NCBI RefSeq assembly: GCF_004134905.2
Contig: NZ_SDPQ02000002.1
Location: forward strand, 434,001 to 498,000
Reading direction: 5' to 3'
Source of the DNA: Aeromicrobium ginsengisoli
GTDB taxonomy: Bacteria; Actinomycetota; Actinomycetes; Propionibacteriales; Nocardioidaceae
DNA length: 64,000 nt
The notes beneath the pieces were generated by a model, which did no database searches, was not told the origin of the DNA, and saw only the letters and a list, made by a program, of their open reading frames with translations. Position 1 is the stretch's first letter. Each line of letters starts with the position of its first letter. Below are positions 30,029 through 39,402 of the stretch, one piece after another. A program made the translations under genes and the position numbers.

Positions 30029-30819
30029 CAGATCCTCGGCAGCACGTCGCCGAGCAGGGCGCCCATCCGCGTCGCCGCGGCCTTGCCGGCCTCGAGGACC
30101 TCTTCGTGGTTGAGCGGCTCACCGGTCATGCCGGCTGCCGCGTTGGTGACGAGCGAGATGCCGAGGATCTCCATGCCGGCGGCCCGGGCCGCGATGGCTT
30201 CGAGCGTCGTCGACATGCCGACGAGATCACCGCCGATCGCGCGGACCATGCCGATCTCGGCCGGCGTCTCGTAGTGAGGGCCGGGCAGCTGGACGTAGAC
30301 GCCCTCGTCGAGGCTCGGGTCGGCCTCGCGACACAGCGCGCGCAGCCGCGACGAGTAGAGGTCGGTGAGGTCGACGAAGTTGGCGCCCTCGAGCGGCGAT
30401 GTCGCGGTCATGTTGATGTGGTCGCTGATGAGCACCGGCGTGCCGGGCGCCCACGCCGGGTTGAGCCCGCCGCAGCCGTTGGTCAGCACGAGCGTCTTGA
30501 CGCCGGCGGCGGCAGCCGTGCGTACGCCGTGCACGACGGCCGCGACGCCCTTGCCCTCGTAGTAGTGGGTGCGGCCCAGGAAGATCAGCAGACGCCGGTC
30601 ACCCAGGCGCACCGAACGCACGGTGCCGCCGTGGCCCTCGACCGCCGGAGCGCTGAATCCGGGCAGCTCGGCGAGCGGGATCTCGTGGTCGGCGGTGCCC
30701 AGCGCGTCGGCCGCCGGCAGCCAGCCCGAGCCCATCACCAGGGCGATGTCGTGGTCGACTCCGCCGGTACGTTCGCGCAGCGCGTCAGCGGCCTGTTGAG
30801 CCAGCTCCTGAGTAGTCAC
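30028..30819 (-). CDS. punA: Purine nucleoside phosphorylase
   Basis: The 263-residue cytosolic enzyme would phosphorolyse inosine and guanosine to base and (deoxy)ribose 1-phosphate. Landmarks are the phosphate-site [17 protein letters not shown], the base-binding [32 protein letters not shown] and VTNAAAG. It belongs to the trimeric, inosine/guanosine-specific class (PunA / DeoD of mycobacteria). The start is GTG at 30819; TAATGT at 30827-30832 lies eight bases before it, and the mRNA looks leaderless. Downstream genes encode a sugar dehydrogenase and a phosphohexomutase that could use the sugar 1-phosphate. Confidence 0.95.
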
Positions 30820-30826
30820 CTGCCGT

Positions 30827-30832
30827 ACATTA
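30827..30832 (-). promoter_or_regulatory. -10 box TAATGT of the PNP operon
   Basis: TAATGT on the minus strand ends eight bases before the GTG start at 30819, implying a leaderless transcript for the PNP / epimerase / mutase operon. Confidence 0.5.
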
Positions 30833-30893
30833 CGACAGCCCTCGGTGCACCGACCGGTGGCGACCCGCTCGGCGGCAATGGGAGACTGATCAG

Positions 30894-32264
30894 GTGACCC
30901 ATGTGACGATCGTCGGCGGCGGACCGGGTGGATACGAAGCGGCTCTCGTGGCCTCCAGGCTCGGGGCGGAGGTCACCCTCATCGAGCGCGACGGCCTCGG
31001 CGGATCGACGGTCCTGACCGACTGCGTGCCCAGCAAGACGCTCATCGCGACCTCGGACCTGCTGACCGAGGTCGGCACGTCGGCCGAGCTCGGGGTGCAG
31101 CTGCCCAAGGACGTACGTGCCGACATCGCGGCGGTCAACGCCCGCGTGCTGACACTCGCCCAGGCTCAGTCCGACGACATCGCGAAGCGCCTCACGACGA
31201 GCAATGTCACGATGATCGACGGCACCGCGACGCTGGAGTCCGCCGGTGTCGTGACCGCCACGACCGCCGACGGCGAGGTACGGATCGAGACCGACGCGAT
31301 CCTGCTCGCCACCGGCGCGCACCCGCGGGTCAGCTCGGACGCGCAGCCGGACGGTGAGCGCATTCTCACGTGGGAGCAGGTCTACAACCTGCAGGACCTG
31401 CCGGAGCACATGATCGTCGTGGGTTCGGGTGTCACGGGCGCCGAGTTCGCCAGTGCCTACAACGGGCTCGGGGCCGCGGTGACGCTGGTGTCGAGCCGCG
31501 ACCGGGTGCTGCCCGGCGAGGACATCGACGCCGCCAACGTCATCGAGGCCGTGTTCACGCGGCGTGGCATGACGGTCATGGGCAACTCGCGGATGGCGTC
31601 TGTCGAGCGTACGGGCGAGGGCGTCCGCGTCACGCTGACCGACGGACGTACGGTCGACGGCTCGCACTGCCTGCTGGCGATCGGCTCGATCCCCAACACC
31701 GAGGGCCTCGGGCTCGAAGAGGTGGGCGTCGCGCTCAACGAGCACGGGTTCGTCCACGTCGACCGGGTCTCCCGCACCAGCGTCCGCGGCATCTACGCCG
31801 CCGGCGACGTCACGGGCGTGCTGATGCTGGCGTCGGTCGCGGCCCAGCAGGGACGCATCGCGATGTCCCACCTGCTCGGCGACGCGGTGCACCCGCTCGA
31901 CCTCGGCAAGGTGGCGAGCAACGTCTTCACCTCGCCCGAGATCGCCACGGTGGGGCTGTCGCAGCAGCAGGTCGACGAGTCCGACCTCCAGATCGACGTC
32001 GCGATGCTGCCGCTGGCGTCCAACCCGCGCGCCAAGATGCAGGGCGTGCACGACGGGTTCGTCAAGATCTTCGCCCGGCGGGGGATGGGCATCGTCGTCG
32101 GCGGCGTCGTCGTCGCGCCCCGCGCCAGCGAGCTGATCCATGCACTGTCGCTCGCGGTCTCAGCGTCGTTGACGGTCGACCAGGTCGCGGACGCGTTCAC
32201 GGTCTACCCGTCGCTGTCCGGGTCGGTCGCCGAGGCGGCGCGGCGCCTGCACCGCCTCGGCTGA
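30894..32264 (+). CDS. lpdA: LpdA-type NAD(P)H:quinone dehydrogenase flavoprotein
   Basis: The 456-residue pyridine nucleotide-disulfide oxidoreductase fold has FAD motif [17 protein letters not shown] motif [29 protein letters not shown] and a C-terminal dimerisation domain. The redox-active CXXXXC of dihydrolipoamide dehydrogenases is incomplete: [15 protein letters not shown] keeps only one Cys. This matches M. tuberculosis LpdA (Rv3303c), a quinone reductase rather than an E3 subunit. It is divergent from the PNP operon. The GTG start has GGGAG nine bases away, and GAGACT lies at the leaderless spacing, so the initiation mode is unclear. Confidence 0.88.
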
Positions 32265-32355
32265 GCTCCGGTCCAGCCCCTGCAACCGCAGGAATGACAC
32301 GGTTGTAGTTCGCGCGATCGCCGATTTTCGGTGGAACTTCGGGCAAAACTGTGGG

Positions 32356-32361
32356 CATAAT
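32356..32361 (+). promoter_or_regulatory. Candidate -10 box CATAAT of the amidase-SpoIID gene
   Basis: CATAAT with TGGAAC 18 bases upstream is the best promoter-like pair in the 158-base gap. It would give a leader of about 55 bases. No riboswitch fold was recognised in this leader. Confidence 0.35.
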
Positions 32362-32422
32362 CGGTCGGAAAACCTCATCCGTCACTTGAGTCACACCCGT
32401 TACACAGGATCGGACTTCCCCC

Positions 32423-35400
32423 ATGCTTTCCTGGCGTACGGCTCGGCGTACGTCGGGCCTCTCCATCGCAGCCGTGCTGATGCTCGGTGTGCTGGCGCCG
32501 TCGACCGCCCACGCGGCCGGCACCGAGGTCACGGGTGGAGCGCCGGGCAAGACCGCTGCCGCGCCCAAGCCGCCGCCGGTCAAGGTCGCCAAGACCAAGG
32601 TCCCGGCCGTCTCGAGGGGCGGCACCGGCAAGGTCGTCGCCGAGCTCGCCAAGACCTCGACCTCGAAGTTCCGCATGATCGGTGTGACCTGGTCGCAGCA
32701 GGGCCTGGCGTACGGCGTCAAGGTCGAGGTTCGCACGCGCACCAACGGGACCTGGTCGTCGTGGACGCCTCTGGACTACGACGGCGACGGCGACGACGGC
32801 GAGGGTGGCAACCCCGGCACCGATCCGCTGTGGGTCGGCAACGCCGACGGCGTCGCGGCGCGGGTCTCCAGCACGGTCGGCACCCCGCAGGACGTACGCA
32901 TCACCACGATCGACCCCGGCACCGACGGCCAACTGGCGACCGCGTCGACCGCCTCGGACACCTCGTACGACGGCGTCGCCCACACGTCGACGGCCGTGGA
33001 CCTCGGCGACGGCACCCCGAGCTACACGCCCAAGCCCACGATCATCACCCGCAGCCAGTGGGGCGCCTCGAGCGGGACGTCTTGCGACTCGCCGCTGACC
33101 GGCGACCGCACGCGCGGCGTCGTGGTGCACCACACCGCGGGCTCCAACACGTACGCCAAGGCCGACTCGGCGGCAATCGTCCGGGCCACGCAGGCCTATC
33201 ACGTCAAGGGTCGCGGCTGGTGCGACATCGGCTACAACTTCCTGGTCGACAAGTACGGCCAGATCTTCGAGGGTCGCCGTGGCGGCGTGGATCGCGCGGT
33301 CCGGGCTGCGCACTCGGGCAACCTCGAGGTCAACACGTACACCATGGGCGTCTCGATGATGGGCAACTACGACGTCACGCGGCCGTCAGCGGCGCTGAAG
33401 GCCGCGATGGTCAAGCTCATCGGCTGGCGGCTCGGCACCAACTTCATCAAGGCCAAGGGCACCTACTCGATCGGCGGGCTGACGCTCAACCGCATCGCCG
33501 GGCACCGCAACGTCGTGAGCACCGAGTGCCCCGGCCGGTACGGCTACGCCTGGCTGTCGCAGGAGGGCGGCCTGCGCGATCGCGTCGAGGCGTACATGTC
33601 GAAGTACTCGACGCCGATCAAGACGCTCTACACGTCGCTCGGCAGCAGCAAGACCGGGGCGATCTACATCGGCGAGGCCCGATCCTCCACCGGCGCGAAG
33701 CTCGACGCCAAACTCATGGATCTCTACGCCCGCACCGGCGCGACCGCGCACTACGTCTCGGGTCGTATCCGTACCGAGTACGACCGGCTCGACTCGCGTG
33801 CCGGCACGCTCGGCTACCCCAAGGACAACCCGCGCACGGTCGACGGCGTGATCCGCCAGCACTTCGACCGCGGCAGCGTGTACGCGGTCTCGGGCAAGCC
33901 CAAGGCGTTCAACGTGCTCGGTGACATCGCGAAGGTCTACACCAAGCTCGGTGAGTCGACCGGCACGCTCGGCGCCCCGATCTCGTCGACCTACACCGTC
34001 AAGACCGGCGTCACGCGCGTCGACTTCGCGCACGGCCGGATCATCTCGACCGCGTCGACCGACAAGACCGTCGCCTACTCCTCGACAGGCAAGGTCATCG
34101 GCACCAGCGCGACGACACGTCCCGCGACGATCACGAGCCTGACGCTCAAGGTCGGCCTCGGCTCGGTCCGCGTGTCCTGGCCCGCGGTGTCCGGCGCCAC
34201 GAGCTACGACGTGTGCCTGATGGCCGACAAGACGCAGACGACCTGCAGCCGCCTGGTGACCAAGCTGACCACGACGAACGTGCAGCTCACCGGGCTCAAG
34301 CCAACCGCCGGCACCGATTGGTACGTCAAGGTGCGAGCCGTCAACGGTGACCTCAGGGGTCTGTGGTCGGCGCTGCGCGGCTTCAACCTGCTCTTCGCGG
34401 GCGACTCCGTGACGGTGCCGAGCACCCGCCAGATCACGGTGACGGGTCACGGCTACGGCCACGGCATCGGCATGAGCCAGTACGGCGCTCAGGGGGCGGC
34501 GAAGCAAGGCGTGACGTACGACAAGATCCTCTCGCGCTACTACCCGGGCACGACGCTCGGCAGCAAGAGCGGGCAGATCAGGGTGCTGATCTCGCAGGAC
34601 ACCGACGACCCGGTCACGATCGCCGGTCGTTCTGGGTTGGTGTTCCGTGAGGTGTCAGCGGGGAAGACCCTGAAGCTGCCCACCTCGATCGGCGGCGAGA
34701 CCGTCGTACGCTGGCGCATCCTGCAGGTCACGAGCGACAAGACCCGCTCGACGCTGCAGTACAAGACGACCGGCGACTACCGCAGCTACCTGGGCACCAG
34801 GTGGACCGGCAACGGCCAGTTCGAGAACCCGTCGACGATGTCGCTGATCCTGCCGGACGGCTCGGCGGTCAAGTATCGCGGCACGTTGCGCTCGGCGATC
34901 CCCTCGACGGGCTCCACGGCCCGCAACACGGTCAACATCCTGCCGATCGAGTACTACGTCCGCGGTGTCATCGCCGCGGAGATGCCGTCGAGCTGGATGC
35001 CGGAGGCCCTCAAGGCGCAGGCCGTCGCCGCCCGTACGTACGGCGTGCGCGCCATGACGAGCTCGCGCTACTACGACATCTGCAGCACCACGGCGTGCCA
35101 GGTGTACGGCGGGGCGAGCCGCGAGACCACGAGCACGACGGCGGCGGCCCAGGCGACCGCCGGCAAGATCGTCACGTACGACAGCAAGCCCGCGTTCACG
35201 CAGTTCTCCTCGTCGTCGGGCGGCTACACGGCCGTGGGCAGCCAGCCGTACCTCACGGCCGTGAACGACCCGTGGGACGACTGGTCGGGCAATGCCAACC
35301 ACTCGTGGACCACGACGGTCGCGGCCTCGACGATCGAGAAGGCCTACCCGTCGATCGGCACCCTCAAGCAGCTCAAGATCGCGACGCGCAACGGCTTCGG

Positions 35401-35518
35401 CGACTGGGGCGGCCGGGTCAAGACCATCAGTCTGGTCGGCTCGGCGAAGACCGTGACGATCTCGGGCGACGACGCGCGCTGGGCCTTCGGCCTCAAGTCG
35501 AACTGGTTCAGGTTCTGA
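32423..35518 (+). CDS. Secreted PGRP amidase / LGFP / fibronectin III / SpoIID fusion
   Basis: The 1031-residue exported protein has a signal peptide (to about residue 32, ending THAAG), then a peptidoglycan-recognition amidase domain (about 206-375; HH in VVVHHTAG, the Tyr of YNFLVDKYG, H and C in GHRNVVSTECPG). Two LGFP repeats follow (about 449-545), a fibronectin III-like domain (about 570-650), and a SpoIID domain (about 668-1025; GHGYGHGIGMSQYGAQG). In SpoIID, VIAAEMPSSW holds the expected catalytic Glu, E853. The amidase would strip peptides from glycan strands, and SpoIID-type lytic transglycosylases cut stripped glycan, so both steps may be joined. It precedes a paralogue without SpoIID. 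Confidence 0.9.
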   Translation: MLSWRTARRTSGLSIAAVLMLGVLAPSTAHAAGTEVTGGAPGKTAAAPKPPPVKVAKTKVPAVSRGGTGKVVAELAKTSTSKFRMIGVTWSQQGLAYGVKVEVRTRTNGTWSSWTPLDYDGDGDDGEGGNPGTDPLWVGNADGVAARVSSTVGTPQDVRITTIDPGTDGQLATASTASDTSYDGVAHTSTAVDLGDGTPSYTPKPTIITRSQWGASSGTSCDSPLTGDRTRGVVVHHTAGSNTYAKADSAAIVRATQAYHVKGRGWCDIGYNFLVDKYGQIFEGRRGGVDRAVRAAHSGNLEVNTYTMGVSMMGNYDVTRPSAALKAAMVKLIGWRLGTNFIKAKGTYSIGGLTLNRIAGHRNVVSTECPGRYGYAWLSQEGGLRDRVEAYMSKYSTPIKTLYTSLGSSKTGAIYIGEARSSTGAKLDAKLMDLYARTGATAHYVSGRIRTEYDRLDSRAGTLGYPKDNPRTVDGVIRQHFDRGSVYAVSGKPKAFNVLGDIAKVYTKLGESTGTLGAPISSTYTVKTGVTRVDFAHGRIISTASTDKTVAYSSTGKVIGTSATTRPATITSLTLKVGLGSVRVSWPAVSGATSYDVCLMADKTQTTCSRLVTKLTTTNVQLTGLKPTAGTDWYVKVRAVNGDLRGLWSALRGFNLLFAGDSVTVPSTRQITVTGHGYGHGIGMSQYGAQGAAKQGVTYDKILSRYYPGTTLGSKSGQIRVLISQDTDDPVTIAGRSGLVFREVSAGKTLKLPTSIGGETVVRWRILQVTSDKTRSTLQYKTTGDYRSYLGTRWTGNGQFENPSTMSLILPDGSAVKYRGTLRSAIPSTGSTARNTVNILPIEYYVRGVIAAEMPSSWMPEALKAQAVAARTYGVRAMTSSRYYDICSTTACQVYGGASRETTSTTAAAQATAGKIVTYDSKPAFTQFSSSSGGYTAVGSQPYLTAVNDPWDDWSGNANHSWTTTVAASTIEKAYPSIGTLKQLKIATRNGFGDWGGRVKTISLVGSAKTVTISGDDARWAFGLKSNWFRF

Positions 35519-35546
35519 CGATCGGTCGGTGACAGGGTCTCTGGGT

Positions 35547-35552
35547 TAGGGT
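35547..35552 (+). promoter_or_regulatory. -10 box TAGGGT of the second PGRP amidase
   Basis: TAGGGT ends eight bases before the ATG at 35560 with no ribosome site, indicating a leaderless transcript that starts inside the short gap after the SpoIID fusion gene. Confidence 0.5.
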
Positions 35553-35559
35553 CGAACCC

Positions 35560-37209
35560 ATGCGTCCTTTCATCTCGGGAACGATCGCAGCGCTGGCGGT
35601 CCTGGCCACGATCTCCGCCCCTGCCCACGCCGAAGACACCCAGGCCCGGCCCAAGGCCGACCCCGTCGACATCGCGACGACCCGCGTCCCAGCCGTCAGC
35701 GACACGGTCGCGCAGGCAGCTGAGCGGGCCGACGACGACGCGGCCGACCTGGTCGCCCAGCTGCCTGCGCGCCGCACCGACGACTTCGGGCTGGTCGGGG
35801 TCACCTGGGCCCGCGGCTTCGACGACCGGGGCATGACGGTCCAGGTGCGGCTGCGCACCGATGGTGCGTGGGCGGGCTGGGAGGAGCTCGACGTCGAGAG
35901 CGACGAGGGCGAGGGCGGCCGCGACGGCACCGAGCCGTTGTGGGCCGGTTCCGCCGACGGCGTCGCCGTTCGCGTGACGAGCCCGACCGGCCAGCGGCCG
36001 AGCGGGCTCACGGTCTCGACGATCGACCCCGGCAGCACACCCGCGCAGGCCGTCACGGCGAGCAACGCGTTCTACGACGCGGCCGGCGATGACGCCGTCA
36101 CCACGGTCGCCGACGGCTCGCCGACCTACACCCCCAAGCCGGCGATCATCTCCCGCTCGGCGTGGGGCGCGAAGAAGAACACCTACTGCGACGCCCCGCG
36201 CACCGGCAGCGAGACCCGTGGCGTCGTCGTGCATCACACGGCAGGCACCAACACCTACACCAAGGCCCAGTCCGCAGGCATCGTCCGCGCCGTGCAGGCG
36301 TACCACATGAGCGGACGCGACTGGTGCGACATCGGCTACAACTTCCTGGTCGACAAGTACGGCCAGATCTTCGAGGGCCGCAACGGCGGCGTCGACAAGC
36401 CGGTCCGCGGTGCGCACGCAGGCAACAAGTCGGTCAACACCTACACGATGGGTGTGTCGATGATGGGCACGTTCACCAGCACCCAGCCGACGGACGCCAC
36501 CAAGGACGCGATGGTCAAGCTCATCGGCTGGCGGCTCGGCACGACGTTCCACGCCGCCAAGGGCAAGTACACCCTCGGTGGCGTCGTGCTCGATCGCATC
36601 GCGGGGCACCGCGACGTCGTGAGCACGGCCTGCCCGGGTCAGGCGGCGTACGAGTGGCTCAGCGCCTCCGGTGGCCTGCGGGACCGCGTCGAGGACTACA
36701 TCGCCAACTACACCTCACCCATCAAGACCAAGGTCATCGCGATGGGGCGGGCGACGACCGGTCCGGTGTACGTCGGTGAGTACCCGTTCACGACCAGCCC
36801 GACCGGCCGCAAGGCTCGCCTCGGCCGGCTCGACATGTACTCGACGACGACCTACGGCACGTTCTCGGTCGGCGGCAGCTTCCGGGACGGCTACAACGCC
36901 AGCGGCGCCCAGGCCGGGCGCCTCGGGGTGCCGATCGCGAACCACCAGTCGACCCCGGTCAGCAGCGTCACGCTCCAGCGCTTCGCCCGCGGCACGGTCT
37001 ATCGCGTGCAGCGAGGCAGTGTCGGTGTGCCCTACTTCCTCTACGGGAAGATCGAGGACAGGTACGTCGCGATCGGCGAAGCCACGAGCTCGCTGGGTGC
37101 GCCGAGGTCGAGCATGAGCCGGCTGTCGAATGGCGCCTACCGGGCCTACTTCGCGCACGGTTCGATCGTCCAGCACACCAACGGGGTCGTCTCGGTCTAC
37201 CCGACCTGA
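35560..37209 (+). CDS. Secreted PGRP-type N-acetylmuramoyl-L-alanine amidase with LGFP repeats
   Basis: The 549-residue protein has a signal peptide (to about residue 24, APAHA-E), a region paralogous to the preceding gene (DIATTRVPAVSD...), an amidase/PGRP domain (about 194-365; VVVHHTAG, YNFLVDKYGQIFEGR, GHRDVVSTACPG give the zinc His, His, Cys and the catalytic Tyr) and two degenerate LGFP repeats near the C-terminus (GRLGVP, SSLGAP). It would hydrolyse the muramoyl-alanine bond of peptidoglycan outside the membrane. It lies 41 bases behind its larger paralogue but seems to have its own promoter. No SpoIID domain is present. Confidence 0.9.
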   Translation: MRPFISGTIAALAVLATISAPAHAEDTQARPKADPVDIATTRVPAVSDTVAQAAERADDDAADLVAQLPARRTDDFGLVGVTWARGFDDRGMTVQVRLRTDGAWAGWEELDVESDEGEGGRDGTEPLWAGSADGVAVRVTSPTGQRPSGLTVSTIDPGSTPAQAVTASNAFYDAAGDDAVTTVADGSPTYTPKPAIISRSAWGAKKNTYCDAPRTGSETRGVVVHHTAGTNTYTKAQSAGIVRAVQAYHMSGRDWCDIGYNFLVDKYGQIFEGRNGGVDKPVRGAHAGNKSVNTYTMGVSMMGTFTSTQPTDATKDAMVKLIGWRLGTTFHAAKGKYTLGGVVLDRIAGHRDVVSTACPGQAAYEWLSASGGLRDRVEDYIANYTSPIKTKVIAMGRATTGPVYVGEYPFTTSPTGRKARLGRLDMYSTTTYGTFSVGGSFRDGYNASGAQAGRLGVPIANHQSTPVSSVTLQRFARGTVYRVQRGSVGVPYFLYGKIEDRYVAIGEATSSLGAPRSSMSRLSNGAYRAYFAHGSIVQHTNGVVSVYPT

Positions 37210-37239
37210 CAGGTGGTCACTCCGCGGCGAGAGGTCTGG

Positions 37240-37245
37240 GATACT
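37240..37245 (+). promoter_or_regulatory. -10 box GATACT of the small membrane protein gene
   Basis: GATACT ends seven bases before the ATG at 37252, the spacing expected of a leaderless transcript. Confidence 0.45.
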
Positions 37246-37251
37246 CAACGC

Positions 37252-37623
37252 ATGACGGCCCTTCTCAAGTCGGTGGCGATCTCTGCTGCCGCCAACGCGG
37301 CGGCCCTGGCGGTCGCTGCGTGGCTCTTCGATCGCTTCAACATCCGGTTCGGCTGGTTCGTCGTCGCGGTGGTGCTGTTCACGGCACTGACCGTGGTGCT
37401 GCGCGGTGTCGTGGTCAGCACCGTCAACCGGTTCGCCAGGGGCTACACGATCGCCGGCGGCCTGGTCCTGACCTTGCTGGGCCTGGTGCTGACCGACCTG
37501 GTCGTGCCCGCGAGCGGCTTCGCGATCGACGGCGTCGGCACGTGGATCGGCGTCACGCTGATCGTCTGGGCAGCCGGCATCGCGTTCGGCGAGGTCGACT
37601 CCGCCCCACCGCCCAAGCGCTGA
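37252..37623 (+). CDS. Small four-helix membrane protein
   Basis: The 123-residue protein consists almost entirely of four hydrophobic segments (about 8-27, 33-53, 64-85 and 96-116) with short loops and a basic C-terminus. An in-frame GTG at 37213 is open, but the ATG at 37252 fits the -10 spacing and removes a charged non-conserved extension. It resembles small actinobacterial membrane proteins of the holin-superfamily type in length and layout; no residue-level signature supports a function. It converges with accA3, with a small hairpin (37622-37638) between them. Confidence 0.7.
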   Translation: MTALLKSVAISAAANAAALAVAAWLFDRFNIRFGWFVVAVVLFTALTVVLRGVVVSTVNRFARGYTIAGGLVLTLLGLVLTDLVVPASGFAIDGVGTWIGVTLIVWAAGIAFGEVDSAPPPKR

Positions 37624-37638
37624 GGCCTACTCGGCCTC
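37622..37638. terminator. Small hairpin between convergent genes
   Basis: GAGGCC-N5-GGCCTC lies at the end of the membrane protein gene and over the last codons of accA3. The stem is only six pairs, so terminator function is uncertain. Confidence 0.35.
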
Positions 37639-39402
37639 TGTGGCGCTCTTGATCTCCGCGATGACTTCGCCGGACGTCACAGTCGCGCCGACCTCGATGG
37701 CCAGGCCGGTCACGACGCCGTCCTTGTGCGCGTTGATCGGCTGCTCCATCTTCATGGCCTCGACCACGACGATCTGGTCGCCCGCCGCGACGGTCTGACC
37801 CTCCTCGACCGTGACCTTGACGACGGTGCCCTGCATGGGCGCGGTCAGCGAGTCGCCGCTGGCGGCGGCTCCGGCAGCCTTGCCGCCCTTGCGCTTGGCC
37901 TTCTTGGCGCCTCCGGCCGGCGCCGCCGATGCGCCGAGTCCACCCGGGAGCACGACCTCGACGCGCTTGCCGCCGACCTCGACCGTGACGCGCTCGCGCT
38001 CGTCCGGCTCCGCGGTCTCGGAGGTGCCGGCGTAGGGCTCGAGCTCGTTGACGTAGTCGGTCTCGATCCACGTCGTGTAGACCTCGAAGTTGCCGTCGGC
38101 GGCGGTGAACGCCGGATCGTCGACGACCGAGCGGTGGAACGGGATGACGGTCGGCATGCCGTCGACGACGAACTCGTCGAGGGCGCGGCGGGAGCGCTCG
38201 AGCACCTGCTGGCGGCTCGTGCCGGTGACGATGAGCTTGGCGACGAGGGAGTCGAACGATCCGGGGATCGTCTCGCCCTCCTCGTAGCCGCCGTCGAGGC
38301 GGATGCCGGGGCCCGACGGGGGAGCCCACTTGGTCAGGGTGCCGGGGGCGGGGAGGAAGCCGCGGCCACCGTCCTCGGCGTTGATGCGGAACTCCATCGA
38401 GTGGCCGCGGATCTCGGGGTCGTCGTAGCCGAGCTCCTCGCCGGCGGCGATGCGGAACATCTCGCGGACGAGGTCGAGGCCGGTGACCTCCTCGGAGACC
38501 GGGTGCTCGACCTGGAGGCGGGTGTTGACCTCGAGGAAGCTGATCGTGCCGTCGCGAGCGACGAGGAACTCGCACGTGCCGGCACCGACGTAGCCGGCTT
38601 CCTTGAGGATGGCCTTGGACGAGGCGTAGAGGCGCTCGATCTGGTCGTCGGTCAGGTAGGGCGCGGGCGCCTCCTCGACGAGCTTCTGGTGACGGCGCTG
38701 CAGCGAGCAGTCGCGGGTCGAGACCACGACGACGTTGCCGTGGGAGTCGGCGAGGCACTGGGTCTCGACGTGGCGCGGCTTGTCGAGGAACTTCTCGACG
38801 AGGCACTCGCCGCGGCCGAAGGCGCTGATCGCCTCGCGGACCGCGGACTCGTAGAGCTCGGGGATCTCCTCGATCGTGCGGGCGACCTTGAGCCCGCGAC
38901 CGCCGCCGCCGAACACGGCCTTGATCGCGACGGGCAGGCCGTTCTCCTTGGCGAAGGCGACGACCTCGTCGGCGTCCTTGACGGCGTCCTTGGTGCCGGG
39001 CGCCAGAGGTGCGTCGGCCTTGAGGGCGAGCTGCTTGGCCTTGGCCTTGTCGCCGAGGTTCTCGATCGCGTGGGGCGGCGGGCCGATCCAGATCAGTCCG
39101 GCGTCGATGACGGCCTGGGCGAACTCGGCGTTCTCGGCGAGGAAGCCGTAGCCGGGGTGCACGCTGTCGGCGCCACTGCGCTCGGCGACGGCGAGGATCT
39201 TCTCGATCGACAGGTAGGAGTCGCCGGGCGTCGAGCCCTCGAGGGAGTAGGCCTCGTCGGCGAGGCGTACGAACACCGCGTCACGGTCGGGCTCCGCGTA
39301 GACCGCGACGCTGCCGATGCCGGCGTCCTTGCACGCGCGGATCACGCGCACGGCGATCTCGCCGCGGTTGGCGATCAGAACCTTGGTCAGGGGCTTGCTC
39401 AC
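37627..39402 (-). CDS. accA3: Acyl-CoA carboxylase alpha subunit (biotin carboxylase plus BCCP)
   Basis: The 591-residue subunit carboxylates its own biotin with ATP and bicarbonate and serves acetyl-/propionyl-CoA carboxylases. It has a biotin-carboxylase N domain ([20 protein letters not shown]), an ATP-grasp domain ([44 protein letters not shown]) and a C-terminal biotinyl domain with K551 in [10 protein letters not shown] Lys/Ala-rich linker joins them. The beta and epsilon subunits lie 7 kb away in the same window. The GTG start follows GAGGAGA. A TAGACT -10 (39441-39446) lies upstream. It is divergent from an acyl-CoA dehydrogenase. Confidence 0.95.

Follow-up and report, generated by a model that had tools for sequence, protein, structure and literature searches.

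The gene at positions 32423 to 35518 (plus strand) of a 64,000-nucleotide stretch of Aeromicrobium ginsengisoli DNA (contig NZ_SDPQ02000002.1, positions 434,001 to 498,000; hereafter, the window) raises the question of what a SpoIID domain is doing in one chain with a PGRP amidase, in an actinobacterium that appears not to sporulate. An earlier note had read the product as an exported protein in which an amidase strips peptides from glycan and a SpoIID domain then cuts it, held on the wall by LGFP repeats, in some process other than sporulation. Our analysis supports this reading in part: the domain chain, the fold and the coupling of amidase and SpoIID stand, and what the note missed is the permuted order of the SpoIID segments, a paralogue in tandem and the unfused gene pairs of other genomes.

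The gene is an uninterrupted open reading frame of 1031 codons plus stop, with an ATG start and no internal stop, and Pfam and NCBIfam recover the chain of domains that had been read from it. A probable signal peptide (residues 1-31, ending in AHA; 32423..32515), recognized by eye from the translation, and an N-terminal domain delimited by sequence comparison (residues ~60-195; 32600..33007) precede the PGRP domain (residues 202-379; 33026..33559), which is identified by Pfam (Amidase_2 at residues 228-371, 3.7e-16, 60.1 bits against a cut-off of 26), by a structure-sequence match and by a conserved residue set. The LGFP region follows (residues ~415-553; 33665..34081), with a single stretch above the Pfam cut-off (residues 463-514; 33809-33964; 6.1e-11, 42.9 bits against 22), a match to protein PS1 at residues 443-540, and a hint of about three LGFP units from a full-length model of low confidence. 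This model, built from the 19-row alignment A2 (pLDDT 69.7, pTM 0.45), is too poor for placing the active sites relative to each other. A fibronectin type III-like linker (FnIII; residues 574-649; 34142..34369; Pfam fn3, 3.9e-4, 21 bits, under the cut-off of 25) leads to the SpoIID domain, in which PF08486 matches residues 835-919 (3e-26, 92.3 bits against 23). The SpoIID_LytB model TIGR02669 scores 204.6 bits against its cut-off of 83.3, and the equivalog for stage II sporulation protein D, TIGR02870, stays below its own (146.6 against 234.75 bits). The closest named relative, from Aeromicrobium sp. 9AM, is 80% identical over the SpoIID domain.

The segments of this SpoIID domain stand in circularly permuted order. 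The conserved GHGxGMSQxGA block (GHGYGHGIGMSQYGAQGA...; residues 669-715; 34427..34567), which ends classical SpoIID, precedes the catalytic block in the fused protein, contrary to the order of TIGR02669, in which the catalytic block comes first and the GHGxGMSQxGA block last. When the blocks were searched separately, residues 655-735 matched TIGR02669 positions 223-269 of 270 (5.1e-19) and residues 770-1031 matched positions 2-195 (2.2e-41). A phmmer search of solved structures gave the same picture, with the Bacillus anthracis SpoIID 4rwr matched in two stretches of swapped order (residues 834-1029 to chain positions 60-267, residues 670-713 to 275-318). Alignment A1, of 24 family members, showed this swap against all three of the chains that it matched (4rwr, 5i1t and 5txu), and the moved block alone reached 4rwr with an i-Evalue of 1.7e-13. 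Within the block, H680 is kept in 202/205 permuted and 20/22 classical open reading frames, Q686 in 204/205 and 22/22, and G688 in all 205 and all 22. We found no mention of a circular permutation of SpoIID in the open-licence literature, and no relevant mention there of SpoIID combined with an LGFP amidase or PGRP.

An AlphaFold2 model of the permuted domain (pLDDT 93.7, pTM 0.89) predicts the SpoIID fold that the note had assumed. In VIA-align it matches the Clostridioides difficile SpoIID 5i1t with Z 16.5 (199 residues aligned, rmsd 2.0 Å), 4rwr with Z 13.3 and the SleC lytic transglycosylase with Z 8.8; further down, where Z is about 7 or lower, the matches are NAD kinases, lipid kinases and similar proteins, which we take as a common arrangement. 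The range aligned to 5i1t is model residues 49-365, and the moved block (1-48) is left unaligned because Foldseek and VIA-align keep chain order; therefore, the permutation rests on the sequence matches. Between the moved block and the catalytic block, the model places a beta-rich part (residues 716-832; 34568..34918) that lies inside the range of the structural matches.

The conserved residues suggest that neither half has lost its catalytic capacity. In the catalytic block (residues 833-1031; 34919..35515; delimited by Pfam, alignments and model), the Glu named in the note, E853 (codon 34979-34981), proves to be that of the EMPxxW motif (VIAAEMPSSW) and is invariant in alignments A1 and A2. 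E853 and R871 are both present in 195/195 permuted and 16/16 classical rows, and E853, R871, Q866 and Q893 are each kept in at least 209 of 211 rows. In the PGRP half, H236, H237, Y271, H361, T367 and C369 are present in 74/74 domains; we take the zinc and catalytic roles of H236, Y271, H361, T367 and C369 to be those of their counterparts in PGRP-LB and T7 lysozyme. C887 and C892 align with two cysteines of the zinc site of C. difficile SpoIID (C140, H145 and C146; PMC6221140, cited, like the other papers here, from extracts). These cysteines are kept in 126 and 128 of 195 permuted rows, respectively, and H145 is without a counterpart in the fused protein; for these reasons, a zinc site or a disulphide at C887/C892 is a mere possibility.

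The link between PGRP and SpoIID recurs across the class. Within Aeromicrobium, 19/23 genomes have a SpoIID match, and in 19/19 it is fused to PGRP (18 fetched loci plus the window). Beyond the genus, we used 20 family loci (one per genus), 40 class loci (hand-picked, nearly all one per genus), 60 phylum loci (hand-picked from about the upper half, by strength, of the matches listed, with most near a contig start left out and two genomes giving two loci each) and 80 named loci (the best 80 of 560); these sets overlap (L032 = L182, L035 = L247, L038 = L251, L040 = L254, L047 = L236). In the family set, one locus is fused and nine have PGRP directly upstream on the same strand; the sole fusion (L247) is on the same contig as L035 and titled Aeromicrobium. 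The class set holds three fusions, six PGRP genes upstream, two downstream and one on the opposite strand, which brings the linked loci to 12/40 in the class and 10/20 in the family. PGRP is next door in three phylum loci, and the named set has seven fusions and 13 separate PGRP genes next door or within ~3 kb.

Amidase_2 is rare in these genomes, with 0 to 4 genes per genome among the 60 sampled, of which 44 have any. Where the genome has a Pfam amidase, linkage was found in 11/25 cases for the class (0.12 expected) and in 10/19 for the family (0.15 expected), chance figures that treat genomes as independent, which they are not. In one Amidase_2-negative genome, our own PGRP profile nonetheless detects a PGRP domain fused to SpoIID; this profile also matches an annotated N-acetylmuramoyl-L-alanine amidase that is divergent from the permuted SpoIID gene of Rhodococcus ruber.

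Among the separate PGRP neighbours, 25/34 lie upstream on the same strand as SpoIID, and 17 of these 25 pairs offer a candidate SpoIID start codon, in frame, that shares either 4 bases or 1 base with the PGRP stop. Once same-contig repeats are removed, the overlap occurs in 15/22 pairs against 5.3 expected for a random frame (P 7.7e-7, which holds if the pairs are independent, and they are not). Such an excess over chance suggests translational coupling of the two genes. In Blastococcus haudaquaticus (L094:7191-12421), the PGRP gene probably overlaps the SpoIID gene, and each of the two has LGFP repeats at its end, which looks like a copying of the anchor from one partner to the other. We also considered long PGRP genes of Nocardioidaceae as further SpoIID fusions, and rejected them when none of the five fetched matched the SpoIID profiles; a Pfam scan of three of these showed FG-GAP repeats. 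FG-GAP repeats in three PGRP amidases of ~970-1050 aa from Nocardioidaceae, and SLH domains in one class relative (L255-L257, L259), may possibly represent other solutions to surface attachment.

The fusion probably arose more than once. The order of PGRP, moved block and catalytic block is the same in every fused protein found, and the linker differs: the window protein has LGFP plus FnIII, and two scanned from other families have an FlgD-like Ig domain. For the SpoIID tree, eight of 220 catalytic blocks were dropped (<110 aa; six of them classical) and the remaining 212 were thinned of near relatives to 182 rows. The fusion label changes four times on this tree, at least two changes being forced by well-supported branches, and one of the four is due to the genus row L174, which sits apart on an open fork. 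In the PGRP tree, a branch with support 99 separates the PGRP halves of the fusions of families f86 and f90 from those of Aeromicrobium, so that the f86 and f90 fusions lie on other branches than that of Aeromicrobium in both trees, each of which is the product of a quick search. Losses or partner swaps, instead of repeated fusion, would be the alternative account of these label changes. The f90 fusions L217 and L223 have a divergent catalytic motif, ISEVSxSW, and L217 has the FlgD-like Ig linker.

Both segment orders occur in Actinomycetota. PF08486 was matched in 105/120 family, 145/296 class and 167/296 phylum genomes; 40 of the 60 phylum loci are permuted and 20 classical, and the 40 class loci comprise 37 permuted, two classical and one without the block, its frame being cut by the contig end. 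A possible artefact was considered, namely that the front GHG block is produced by the search profile. This was rejected, as separate block profiles, built from permuted proteins, still gave 20 classical and 40 permuted among the phylum loci, which had been found with PF08486 alone. On the tree of 182 catalytic blocks, the 15 classical rows are set apart from the permuted ones by a branch with support 96, and therefore one change of order suffices. The permuted order is not confined to Actinomycetota, a restriction ruled out by a Fusobacterium animalis plasmid protein with the block in front. Of the 22 plasmid records matched, eight were opened: those of F. animalis and R. ruber (Actinomycetota) are permuted, and those of Acetoanaerobium, Monoglobus and Priestia (Bacillota), the cyanobacterial Nostoc and Leptolyngbya, and Thermus are classical. 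The catalytic block of the F. animalis SpoIID/LytB protein (L263:724-2277) seems to be without its last part. In Nocardioides, a second copy of the permuted SpoIID gene can stand in tandem or close by (L044, L045, L049, L052, L054, L058, L059, L067).

What, then, would the fused protein do? The genome, which is 99.94% complete, has no match to SpoIIP (PF07454) or Spo0A (PF08769), in a search with a positive Bacillus subtilis control; this agrees with the note's view of a non-sporulating organism, and endospore engulfment is therefore not the process. A SpoIID role outside sporulation is already published, for Waddlia chondrophila (PMC6635528). We favour, as reasonably probable, a sporulation-free relay of amidase and then lytic transglycosylase, given the absence of SpoIIP and Spo0A and the published behaviour of SpoIID and LytB. 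The product would be a secreted enzyme that hydrolyses peptidoglycan in two steps: the PGRP half, as a zinc N-acetylmuramoyl-L-alanine amidase, would take off stem peptides, and the permuted SpoIID half, as a lytic transglycosylase with E853 as catalytic acid/base, would then cut the bared glycan, with LGFP as the wall-binding part and FnIII as spacer. The fused protein would thus be the union of a gene pair kept as two genes in other Actinomycetes, and would do the SpoIIP and SpoIID job of Bacillus without sporulation and with an amidase from another family, the likely process being septal splitting or wall turnover. The observations behind this are the domains, the predicted fold of the SpoIID half, the permutation, the conserved residues and the recurrence of linkage and fusion; the activities, their order, the wall binding and the process are what we infer. 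LGFP repeats are wall binders. The repeat is named, in cell-surface proteins, in PMC2447325.

A close published parallel to this relay is the SpoIID-SpoIIP engulfment machinery of B. subtilis and C. difficile, which is alike in SpoIID fold, catalytic Glu, partner amidase and the expected order of amidase and then glycan cutter: C. difficile SpoIID acts only after the SpoIIP amidase bares the glycan, and is inactive without SpoIIP (PMC6221140). The fused protein differs in being permuted, in having PGRP/Amidase_2 in place of SpoIIP, in its single chain, and in a genome without SpoIIP and Spo0A. In W. chondrophila, a chlamydial bacterium, the host is likewise non-sporulating and SpoIID is found at the septum and acts on wall glycan; a fused amidase, unlike here, is not mentioned for it in the extract of PMC6635528.

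Several observations weigh against the relay. No PGRP gene was found in the stretch around 10/20 family, 28/40 class, 57/60 phylum and 60/80 named loci, and 16/60 sampled genomes have no Pfam Amidase_2 match. SpoIID itself is absent from 151/296 class, 129/296 phylum and 4/23 genus genomes; the last four (G069, G080, G091, G097) are without a PF08486 match though 99-100% complete, and the gene is therefore dispensable in some species. Since most sampled loci are not beside a PGRP gene, SpoIID must there work alone or with other amidases. Furthermore, the chlamydial SpoIID was active on denuded strands and on intact peptidoglycan alike (PMC6635528), so that denuding need not come first, and B. 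subtilis LytB, which has a SpoIID domain, appears in PMC10653849 as a protein that does not hydrolyse peptidoglycan.

This last point belongs to the main rival, which we judge unlikely: the SpoIID half would bind wall glycan and stimulate or position the amidase, in the manner of LytB with LytC, and would itself cleave little glycan or none. LytB (CwbA) and LytC resemble the fused protein as a SpoIID-domain protein working with an amidase, LytB stimulates LytC, and one assay found that dead SpoIID stimulated SpoIIP, which a later assay did not confirm (PMC6934232). Differences are that LytB, according to PMC10653849, is a modifier without hydrolytic activity and that the two are separate proteins. 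The fusion and gene pairing fit an enhancer equally well. What tells against it is the conservation of E853, R871, Q866 and Q893 described above, which includes genomes without Amidase_2, in a comparison made among permuted and classical SpoIID rows. LytC, for its part, belongs to the Amidase_3 family.

It is improbable, in our estimate, that the two enzymes work side by side on ordinary peptidoglycan, as in a double autolysin of the Atl type, with SpoIID having no need of denuded strands. The staphylococcal Atl-type autolysins are alike in carrying an amidase and a glycan-cutting domain in one secreted precursor, and unlike in their glycosidase family, their amidase set and the proteolytic processing of Atl. 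The cutting of intact peptidoglycan by the chlamydial SpoIID would fit such independence, as would the commoner state of permuted SpoIID, which is to have no nearby PGRP gene, in some cases in genomes without Amidase_2; the fusions in separate lineages and the start-stop overlap suggest dependence instead, in line with the inactivity of C. difficile SpoIID without SpoIIP. A main target in foreign walls or shed fragments, for feeding or competition, seems very improbable. The signal peptide and the lack of an obvious membrane anchor (by eye) would allow it, but SpoIID is present as one copy, in 19/23 genomes of the genus, its neighbours are a PGRP paralogue and housekeeping genes, and no toxin or immunity family was found among the scanned neighbours, several of which matched no family.

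The case ties PGRP amidases to SpoIID in Actinomycetes that do not sporulate, by way of fusions, overlapping genes and gene neighbourhood, and offers a natural single-chain counterpart of the SpoIIP-SpoIID relay that is suited to testing substrate hand-over. The natural permutation indicates that the SpoIID domain tolerates this change, which gives a handle on the active-site parts of a little-studied fold. A more general proposal, plausible though short of probable, is that Actinomycetes run a PGRP and permuted-SpoIID relay without sporulation, that selection fused its genes repeatedly, and that the swapped block, lying beside the amidase linker, may let both sites share one strand.

Turning to the neighbourhood, a PGRP-LGFP paralogue of 549 aa without SpoIID (35560..37209, plus strand) begins 41 bases downstream of the fused gene, possibly on one transcript with it. 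It is 50% identical to the fused protein over residues 14-541, and these two genes account for both Amidase_2 matches in the genome. Actinobacterial PGRP-LGFP amidases of this kind share the N-terminal domain, PGRP and LGFP with the fused protein, and differ in being without the SpoIID half. A scan of 32100-37700 for promoters and terminators found none. The neighbours that can be named by Pfam or NCBIfam are housekeeping genes: members of the phosphoglucomutase/phosphomannomutase and purine nucleoside phosphorylase families, a pyridine nucleotide-disulphide oxidoreductase, a biotin carboxylase and an acyl-CoA dehydrogenase. We rejected a minus-strand open reading frame at 30816-32141 because the pyridine nucleotide-disulphide oxidoreductase is encoded on the plus strand of that region. 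The N-terminal domain, at 32600-33007 in the fused gene and at 35560-36130 in the paralogue, has no Pfam match and carries the motif VGVTW...VRTR..G.WS.W..L...PLWVG.ADGV. The same domain is common to many other PGRPs of the gene pairs, and it perhaps binds carbohydrate.

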